Source of the DNA: Bacteroidota bacterium
Lineage (GTDB): Bacteria > Bacteroidota > Bacteroidia > AKYH767-A > 2013-40CM-41-45
DNA: 64,000 bases
NCBI GenBank assembly: GCA_003389385.1
Contig: QQVM01000005.1
Coordinates: forward strand, 1 to 64,000
Direction of reading: 5' to 3'
The notes under the pieces were generated by a model, which was given only the letters and a program-made list of their open reading frames with translations, did not search any database and had not been told where the DNA came from. A program made the translations under genes and the position numbers. Of the stretch, positions 15,822-19,090 are shown piece after piece. Within the stretch, counting starts at the first letter, position 1. Each line of letters opens with the position of its first letter.

Positions 15822-17645
15822 ATGAAAAAAATATTTATACTGTTCATGCTGGCATCCAACCTCTGCCAGGCTCAGACATTTTCCAATACCAATCAGCTTC
15901 CTGTTCCGAACAACAATTCGGAATTGATGATTCCAATAGTGGTAAGCGGACTTCAGAACATCGACTCTTCCTTTGGGATCGGAGCTCTTTGCCTGGATAT
16001 CTCGCATCAGTCGGCATCGGATCTGATCATCACGATTAAAAGTCCGGATGGCAAAGAAGCACTCTTAGTCGACACCAAGGGTGGTAATTCTCCCGGCTTT
16101 CCTGGCACCTGCTTCCAGGAGAATGGCAGTGGCGGCTGGATAAACCTGGCTGTTCCGCCTTTCAGCGGCTCTTACTTTCCGCAGCAGACAATCAATCTCT
16201 TTAATGACGGATCAAATCCGAACGGCACCTGGTGGCTGAGCATACGGGATGTTTTCGTTCCGGGTAATACAGGCACATTTAATTACGTGAACCTTACTTT
16301 CATGCACAATCCACCATACAGGGCTGCAGGCTCAGGCCCATGCAGCGCAGCAAATCCAGGTGGATGTCTTTGTCCGGACTCGACAGCCACCGACTGTGAC
16401 CTTTTGCCTGACATGACAGCTTCTGCACTATGCATCATGAATGATCATCAGGAACAGGTAGGCAATATCCGCCTCGGCAATGCAACTCCTAATATCGGCT
16501 ATGGTCCTCTTGAAATTCATGGCACCAATACCTGTTATTGTGATACGGTGTTGGTTGCCTGCAATATCGGCGTTTGTCCTGACGGGTCATCTCCTAAAGA
16601 GCTCATCAACCAGAGAGTGTATCACCGCAGCGGGAACAACATGACTTATTACGACAGGCCTGCTGGAACAATGAGCTATCATCCATCACACTCTCATGTG
16701 CACGTCGATAACTGGGCCGATTTCTCCCTTCGCCGCAGCACCGCAGATCCTGACGCACGCAACTGGCCGAGAATAGGAAACGGAACCAAGGTGAGTTTCT
16801 GCCTTGTGAACCTGGGCGACTGCGACAACAATCTCGGCTACTGTGTTGACTCTGCCGGTCAGGTGCTGAGAAAGTCTGATATTCCGAATTCGGATTTCGG
16901 CAGTGTCACCGGTTGCGGAAGCAGTCAGGGGATCTATGTCGGCAATCTTGACATCTACAGCAGCGGCCTGAACGGCATGGGCATCATTCTTCCTCCGAAT
17001 GCATGCAACGGCGATTACTTCATCGTATCCATTACAGATCCGGACGATAACATGCTTGAGGTTAACGAGGACAATAACTGGGTGGCAGTTCCGATCACTC
17101 TTACTTTGCAATCGGGCGGAACTTTCCCGGATGCTGGAGTCAACTTTACTGTCTCAGTCAATACAGTCAACTTCACTGCTGTGGCCAACAATCCTGATTC
17201 TGTCGTTTGGCACTTTGGTGATGGTTCTGCTCCGCAGACTAGCGTGGGCAATACAATTTCATACACTTACCCCGGTCCGGGTTTCTATGTGGTACAGCTT
17301 TATGCCTACAACTCATGCGGCCCTACAGTGACCATCGACACGGTGGCAGTATTGCCGGTCACCACTTTCATATCTGAGCATGAAGCCCTGGGGCAGGTAA
17401 AATTATTCCCTAATCCTGCTACAGATGGTTTCAGTCTGCAATACTCACTGATGATGAAGGATGATGTTCATATCAGCATGACTGACATGATGGGCAGAAA
17501 AGTGTTTGAGCGCGTTCACAGATCTCAGCTTCCGGGAAAACATCAGTATGAATTCATCAAAGACGCAGCAATTTCATCGGGAATTTATTTCTTCAACATT
17601 AAAACGGCAAGTTCCTCTTACAGTGAACGGCTCCTTGTTCACTGA
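15822..17645 (+). CDS. T9SS-type secreted protein: P-domain + lysyl-oxidase-like domain + PKD-like + C-terminal sorting domain
   Basis: Signal peptide at Met 15822; LDISHQSASDLIITIKSPDG...NPNGTWWLSIRD (P-domain-like); YHPSHSHVHVDNWADFSLR and TKVSFCLVN...NLDIYSSGLNGMG...MLEVNEDNNW (lysyl-oxidase-like); VWHFGDGS (PKD); KLFPNPATDGFSL... Confidence 0.8.
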   Translation: MKKIFILFMLASNLCQAQTFSNTNQLPVPNNNSELMIPIVVSGLQNIDSSFGIGALCLDISHQSASDLIITIKSPDGKEALLVDTKGGNSPGFPGTCFQENGSGGWINLAVPPFSGSYFPQQTINLFNDGSNPNGTWWLSIRDVFVPGNTGTFNYVNLTFMHNPPYRAAGSGPCSAANPGGCLCPDSTATDCDLLPDMTASALCIMNDHQEQVGNIRLGNATPNIGYGPLEIHGTNTCYCDTVLVACNIGVCPDGSSPKELINQRVYHRSGNNMTYYDRPAGTMSYHPSHSHVHVDNWADFSLRRSTADPDARNWPRIGNGTKVSFCLVNLGDCDNNLGYCVDSAGQVLRKSDIPNSDFGSVTGCGSSQGIYVGNLDIYSSGLNGMGIILPPNACNGDYFIVSITDPDDNMLEVNEDNNWVAVPITLTLQSGGTFPDAGVNFTVSVNTVNFTAVANNPDSVVWHFGDGSAPQTSVGNTISYTYPGPGFYVVQLYAYNSCGPTVTIDTVAVLPVTTFISEHEALGQVKLFPNPATDGFSLQYSLMMKDDVHISMTDMMGRKVFERVHRSQLPGKHQYEFIKDAAISSGIYFFNIKTASSSYSERLLVH

Positions 17646-17656
17646 TCATCCAAATG

Positions 17657-17689
17657 ATGCCTTTGAAAATCCTCAAAGGCATTTTTTTT
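17657..17689 (+). terminator. Intrinsic terminator
   Basis: ATGCCTTTGA-AAATCC-TCAAAGGCAT followed by T8. Confidence 0.92.
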
Positions 17690-17692
17690 GAT

Positions 17693-17701
17693 TATTTTTG
17701 C
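17693..17701 (+). promoter_or_regulatory. -7 element TATTTTTGC
   Basis: TAnnTTTGC 12 nt before ATG 17714. Confidence 0.55.
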
Positions 17702-17713
17702 AGCACAAACAAT

Positions 17714-19090
17714 ATGAGGAGAAAATTTATTTTAACTGTATCACTGTCCGTCCTGATTTCGCAGGTTGCGATTGCCCAAGTGGACTTTTTATGGAAGCAC
17801 AGCATCAAGAATTCGCTGAACAGCATCAACAAATCTGTCGCTATACAAACAGACAAGTGGGGAAACTGTTACATGACAGGAACCTCATGGATTCCTGATT
17901 CCACAAAGGATGTGCTTCTGATCAAGTTTGATCCTCAGGGCAGGGAAGAATGGAGGCGTCTGTATGACCATCCTGATCACCGTGACGACGTTCCTGTTGC
18001 CATGAGTCTGGATCCTTTCGGGAACATTCTGATTGCCTGCATGAGCCGGAGTGACAAAAGCATGAATGATATCCTGCTGTTGAAATTTTCACCTGAAGGA
18101 GCTTTGGAGATTGAAAAGAAAATTGACGGAGGACACAAACTTTTCGACGCTCCGGTTTGCATTACTGCTGATGATAGAGCCCACATCCTTGTGGGTGGTT
18201 ATGTGACTACGCCAGACTCAGGCCTTAATGCGGTTTTATACCGCTTTTCTCCTGAAGGAAAACTGCTTTGGTCTAAGCGTGCCGGAACAAAAGATATGGA
18301 CATCTTCAATGCCATTATCAGCGATGATTCTTGCAATGTATATGTAGCGGGCAATTACAAGGTGGCGCAGCGAAGCTCTGACTTCATCATTCAGAAATAT
18401 GATTCCTCCGGAACCAAGATGTGGGAATATATTTATGACGGAATGTTATCCATGTCTGATGGCATCAGTCACCTGGCTTCCGACGATTCTCTGAATATTT
18501 ATTTCAGCGGCTTCATCAACAAGGGCAGCGACCGTTCAGATGTACCTCTGTTCAAAATGGACCGCAACGGAAAATCAATTCAGGAAAATCTTTTCTTTGG
18601 AGGAATGTCTGACTGCAGAGCAAAACATCTATACGTGAATGCGTCAGGTGTGTACATGACATTGGAGCAAACTAATTATAACATGGGCGGACAGAGCTCC
18701 AATACAGTTTTGCTTTACGGAAAAGGAGGGCGACAGGAGTTCAGCATGAACAGCAGACAGGATTTCAGATACGACAGGTTTATTCCTGTTGACGGAATGC
18801 CCCTGATTCTGGGAACAGGTTTGACCAGACCGGAAAACACACTGATTCCCTTCATCGCTGAACCGGATACATCAGAAGAATTGGTCTGGATGTTCACAGA
18901 TAATGAGGTGTACGGACTCACCAATATGATCGACTATGCAGTTCACGGAAAAAGAATTTTTTTCCTGGGTGATGATACCGGAGAAGCTACCGGCACTATC
19001 ACACTCTTATGCTATAATTTTTTAAATCCGAATAAAAAATCCAGACGCTGGATAGCAAAATTATCAGACTGTGAAGTTCAGAAAGATTGA
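17714..19090 (+). CDS. Secreted beta-propeller (SBBP-like) protein of unknown function
   Basis: Signal peptide MRRKFILTVSLSVLISQVAIAQ; repeated D..GN.Y..G......D..L.K....G motifs. Confidence 0.7.
   Translation: MRRKFILTVSLSVLISQVAIAQVDFLWKHSIKNSLNSINKSVAIQTDKWGNCYMTGTSWIPDSTKDVLLIKFDPQGREEWRRLYDHPDHRDDVPVAMSLDPFGNILIACMSRSDKSMNDILLLKFSPEGALEIEKKIDGGHKLFDAPVCITADDRAHILVGGYVTTPDSGLNAVLYRFSPEGKLLWSKRAGTKDMDIFNAIISDDSCNVYVAGNYKVAQRSSDFIIQKYDSSGTKMWEYIYDGMLSMSDGISHLASDDSLNIYFSGFINKGSDRSDVPLFKMDRNGKSIQENLFFGGMSDCRAKHLYVNASGVYMTLEQTNYNMGGQSSNTVLLYGKGGRQEFSMNSRQDFRYDRFIPVDGMPLILGTGLTRPENTLIPFIAEPDTSEELVWMFTDNEVYGLTNMIDYAVHGKRIFFLGDDTGEATGTITLLCYNFLNPNKKSRRWIAKLSDCEVQKD

Follow-up and report, generated by a model that had tools for sequence, protein, structure and literature searches.

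A divergent lysyl oxidase family protein with a predicted type IX secretion sorting tail in a Bacteroidota bacterium

The stretch of DNA analysed here (the window) comprises 64,000 nucleotides of a Bacteroidota bacterium contig (QQVM01000005.1, positions 1 to 64,000). One gene for a multidomain, predicted secreted protein and a second gene downstream of it are the subject of this study, and their features are as follows.

15822..17645, + strand: coding sequence of 607 aa (signal peptide, P-domain, lysyl-oxidase-like domain, PKD domain, type IX secretion system (T9SS) sorting tail); open frame with no internal stop
15822..15875, + strand: predicted signal peptide MKKIFILFMLASNLCQAQ, read from the sequence; the model has a hydrophobic helix at 2-14
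15993..16301, + strand: P-domain PF01483, residues 58-160; 30.4 bits, cut-off 21
16332..17117, + strand: lysyl-oxidase-like domain, residues 171-432; from profile, homologue and fold searches
16680..16682, + strand: His287, at the position of human LOX His289 and LOXL2 His623 by motif alignment; variable in the family
16689..16703, + strand: HxHxH putative copper site, His290/His292/His294 (His-Ser-His-Val-His); codon count and alignment with lysyl oxidases of Streptomyces and of further Bacteroidota
16788..16790, + strand: Lys323, putative LTQ lysine; codon count and alignments
16956..16958, + strand: Tyr379, putative LTQ tyrosine (DIY motif); codon count and alignments
17154..17336, + strand: PKD domain PF00801/PF18911, residues 445-505; above the curated cut-off
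17403..17639, + strand: T9SS type A sorting domain PF18962/TIGR04183, residues 528-606; 35.2 bits and 37.1 bits, above the curated cut-offs
17656..17693, + strand: candidate intrinsic-terminator-like hairpin just past the lysyl oxidase stop, with an 11-pair stem and a T-rich tail; consensus scan
17714..19090, + strand: secreted beta-propeller-like protein with SBBP repeats; PF06739 20 bits, cut-off 20.5

The sequence-only reading had placed the HxHxH, lysine and tyrosine codons within 15822-17645, and counting codons from 15822 showed that these positions are exact to the base. It had also regarded the fusion with a P-domain, a PKD domain and a T9SS tail as unusual. All three domains scored above their curated cut-offs, but the architecture is not unusual locally, being common to sister genes.

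Pfam search with the whole protein gave no lysyl oxidase match at E 1, and a scan of genome contigs with the whole protein gave matches restricted to the P-domain or the sorting tail. The domain was also missed by single-protein searches of Pfam, NCBIfam and PDB sequences, and surfaced through paralogues in the same genome and through family profiles. Scored alone it reached 18.4-18.6 bits with PF01186 against a curated cut-off of 20.4, and being under the cut-off in the present protein it is likely to go unannotated.

The relatives gave clearer matches. Two other genes of the same genome showed 42% identity over residues ~171-466, and both clear the Pfam lysyl oxidase cut-off themselves; close paralogues of that genome do so at 33-34 bits. 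PF01186 was matched by 37 of 57 relatives, with a best value of 7e-12. With a profile of 23 homologous domains, human LOXL2 (5ze3, chain E) was the sole significant PDB match (6e-6), and the KASFC/KVSFC and DMY/DIY motifs were in register between LOXL2 and the family profile, which aligns the LTQ lysine and tyrosine. Comparison by hhalign gave 2.5e-14 against a Streptomyces plasmid protein annotated as "lysyl oxidase family protein", and BLASTP gave 3e-6 to a Bacteroidota lysyl oxidase (L113, genome G055), the string DIYSSGL being common to both. The invariant columns in a five-way alignment of diverse proteins were mainly the three histidines, the lysine, the next cysteine, GxDxY and NN near the end. 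In L113 itself the lysyl oxidase domain is animal-like (PF01186, 9e-33) and lies within a large multidomain protein, in which PKD-like and dockerin-like stretches were seen by eye.

The full-length model had a pLDDT of 86.7. Its fold matches were mostly generic beta-sandwich chains and P-domains, with furin chains among the Foldseek matches, and the domain was therefore modelled separately. The domain-only AlphaFold2 model, built with 57 sequences, was confident, with a pLDDT of 93.9 and a pTM of 0.89, and chains A and B of LOXL2 alone were matched in the PDB below 1e-3 by Foldseek (9.5e-6 and 1.4e-5, probability 1.00), so that LOXL2 is the sole significant solved-structure match of this model. 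The match is local, because the TM-score to LOXL2 was 0.42 with an rmsd of 12 A, and the LOXL2 structure matched is the zinc-bound precursor. Since lysine and tyrosine are 16.6 A apart in the LOXL2 precursor crystal (PMC9694262), a wide separation of the His triad from Lys and Tyr in a model is a weak criterion for refutation. The lysyl oxidase kinship proposed from the letters alone was thus upheld: the Pfam score of the protein is marginal, the relatives, the profile, hhalign and the fold agree, and sequence and fold homology together establish family membership.

The copper histidines and the LTQ lysine and tyrosine, which the earlier reading had considered present, are kept beyond chance across nearly all of 53 homologous domains. 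Lys323 was found in 53 of 53, and Tyr379 in 52 of 53, the exception being a copy whose gene is broken in two by a shift of frame. His294 is likewise kept in 53/53, while His290 and His292 are each kept in 50/53, and all three histidines are intact in 50/53. In LOXL2 both the formation of LTQ and activity depend on each one of the three histidines (PMC9694262). Three copies without two of the copper histidines keep the lysine and tyrosine and are otherwise intact, and they form one clade in the tree (support 100/99). Because Lys and Tyr are retained in these copies, their conservation may be partly structural. The clade consists of L087, L090 and L091 (G007, G003 and G004), and downstream of each of the three is encoded a polytopic 4Fe-4S protein of the Fer4_5 type that contains TPR repeats.

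Prokaryotic lysyl oxidases have been reported in Bacteroidetes, Actinobacteria, Proteobacteria, Gemmatimonadetes, Deinococcus-Thermus and Archaea (Grau-Bove et al. 2015, PMC4448552). They were mostly single-domain proteins, and the first histidine (human H289) was absent from bacteria in that survey (PMC4448552). The present protein belongs to the same domain family and keeps the three copper histidines and the LTQ Lys/Tyr, whereas its domain is flanked by a P-domain, a PKD domain and a T9SS tail. His287 is also present, as it is in 30 of the 53 copies, the position being mostly D or N elsewhere.

Compared with LOXL2 (5ze3), with 14-16% identity over the structural alignment, the present protein lacks SRCR domains and has the lysine and tyrosine in register. 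Cys327 and Cys365 occupy the places of Cys657 and Cys673, which form a disulfide in LOXL2 (pairs: PMC9180022), whereas Asn375 stands where LOXL2 has Cys685; the disulfides differ from one lysyl oxidase to another (PMC6452851). The best functional precedent is the lysyl oxidase of Haloterrigena turkmenica, which is prokaryotic and has copper-stimulated amine oxidase activity (PMC6452851). That enzyme, compared here by description, is archaeal, and no P-domain, PKD or T9SS tail is reported for it (PMC6452851). By tblastn, a protein of Streptomyces sp. SGAir0924 (WP_127436696.1) was matched over 169 aa at 27% identity, with HxHxH, Lys and Tyr aligned, but its N-terminal half differs and no T9SS sorting tail was seen in its sequence.

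The genome also encodes a SprA translocon (SprA_N, 538 bits) and has at least 150 sorting-tail matches. The C-terminal sorting domain and the presence of a T9SS in the genome mark the protein as predicted T9SS cargo. We consider it probable that the protein, a divergent yet true member of the lysyl oxidase family, leaves the cell through the type IX secretion system.

Homologues were found in all 11 family-level genomes. With the family profile, members were detected in 19 of 23 genera of the order and in 27 of its 42 genomes. Sampling across the phylum gave members in 4 of 297 genomes, one of which is the window's own genome and another of which (G082) is matched just in short stretches that recur along one long ORF. 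The family is common in its Bacteroidota order and rare in the phylum. A P-domain with a lysyl oxidase domain, without the T9SS tail, was found in a distant family (G200, L044), so the fusion is not restricted to the order of the window. A scan of viral contigs revealed no relatives.

One genome, G006, had 18 lysyl oxidase copies (L058-L075) at separate loci, which form a single clade with support 100/100. The paralogue pairs compared gave dS of about 0.8-1.3 and dN/dS of 0.05-0.11, values that come from paralogues of this one genome, the dS of the window-locus orthologues being saturated. The clade and these values indicate old duplicates under strong purifying selection and not assembly duplicates.

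The start codon of the downstream propeller gene (17714..19090) was chosen by its signal-like N-terminus. A propeller gene lies downstream of the lysyl oxidase gene in four genera, and the lysyl oxidase/SBBP pair was also found in G010, G002 and G007, where, however, synteny takes in an entire block of roughly twelve genes. The downstream side is readable for 17 copies of G006, and 16 of these have a same-strand SBBP gene within about 1.1 kb, two of the 16 pairs having a small or doubtful ORF in the gap; these pairs are non-independent observations because the copies share one ancestor. The remaining (17th) copy has an SBBP gene divergently upstream, and the 18th runs off its contig. Many further SBBP genes occur in G006 away from lysyl oxidase genes, with roughly 50 SBBP ORFs counted by eye.

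An operon of the lysyl oxidase and propeller genes was considered. Co-transcription is doubtful because a strong terminator-like hairpin (17656-17683) separates the two genes in the window, and with the synteny extending over the whole block in the three relatives, the link to a substrate is weak; we claim adjacency alone. The propellers are candidate partners of the lysyl oxidase. A second type of lysyl oxidase, without P-domain (L085, L086 and L088), was followed in three genomes by a same-strand secreted Reg_prop-like propeller, which belongs to another propeller family. The propeller of L085 is Reg_prop by Pfam and has a T9SS tail, and similar proteins were found at L086 and L088.

No report of a T9SS lysyl oxidase was found in the literature searched, and the one paper there that has both terms, a review on P. 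gingivalis and oral cancer, appears to be unrelated. Bacterial lysyl oxidases are already known, while the P-domain/lysyl oxidase/PKD/T9SS architecture, the prevalence at order level and the expansion to 18 copies appear to be undescribed. The function of prokaryotic lysyl oxidases has been called enigmatic (PMC6452851). A clade with a surface-export tag, the full set of catalytic residues, expansion under purifying selection and adjoining candidate partners provides a concrete gene set for testing covalent lysine cross-linking of the bacterial surface.

The most likely reading of the protein is a copper/LTQ amine oxidase that reaches the cell surface by way of the T9SS. It would be exported by Sec and then fold and form disulfides in the periplasm, where Cu(II) may be bound through His290/292/294, before it passes through the outer membrane, to be either set free or anchored at the surface. 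By analogy with the family, copper and oxygen would convert Tyr379 to a quinone which is joined to Lys323, giving LTQ, and the enzyme would oxidise primary amines, whether protein lysines or polyamines, to aldehydes, releasing ammonia and H2O2. The P-domain and the PKD domain probably aid folding or binding to adjacent surface proteins. Speculatively, aldehyde groups arising on proteins of the surface or matrix, the adjoining beta-propeller proteins perhaps among them, might give rise to covalent cross-links.

The substrate could also be of another kind. An active amine oxidase whose substrates are small amines (polyamines, amino acids or amine antibiotics), or one serving H2O2 production, would be a variant of this best explanation differing in substrate only. 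The archaeal lysyl oxidase has relaxed specificity, accepting amines, taurine and aminoglycosides (PMC6452851), and because this precedent is broad for small amines we take small-amine oxidation as a serious alternative, possible rather than probable. It also fits that no protein substrate is strongly tied to the gene, whereas the T9SS surface module and the propeller neighbours would fit surface protein substrates somewhat better.

Reuse of the lysyl oxidase fold as a non-catalytic surface or adhesion domain, which may bind metal and forms no LTQ, seems unlikely to us. The companion P-domain, PKD and Ig_7 domains are typical of adhesive or structural modules, some members have CARDB matches, and the three histidine-deficient relatives keep their lysine and tyrosine. 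But histidine loss is confined to that one clade, and three histidines kept in 50 of 53 domains are as expected if most copies are selected for metal binding.

That the domain is merely a CARDB/Ig-like beta-sandwich with a chance HxHxH and no lysyl oxidase kinship is very improbable, and identity with this non-enzymatic Ig-like family was rejected: the match of the present protein to PF07705 (12.3 bits, cut-off 22.7) is under the cut-off and covers ~30 residues, the matches of 24 of 57 relatives, though better, are weak (8.6e-5 at best), PF01186 is far stronger in the relatives, CARDB structures came at E 0.2 or worse in Foldseek with the domain model against 9.5e-6 for LOXL2, and the HxHxH, KxxFC, GxDxY and NN pattern is common to independently annotated lysyl oxidases.

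Beyond a T9SS-exported copper/LTQ amine oxidase as such, it is conceivable, though in our opinion rather doubtful, that in a lineage of Bacteroidota the exported lysyl oxidase and dedicated beta-propeller partners make up a covalent cross-linking system for the surface or matrix, with 18 diversified copies in one genome. If true, it would be a bacterial counterpart of animal matrix cross-linking. Animal lysyl oxidase cross-links collagen. Two collagen-like (Gly-X-Y) ORFs were observed in the genome of the window (G000:C14:66748-68112 and G000:C3:149616-149771), which are possible substrates.
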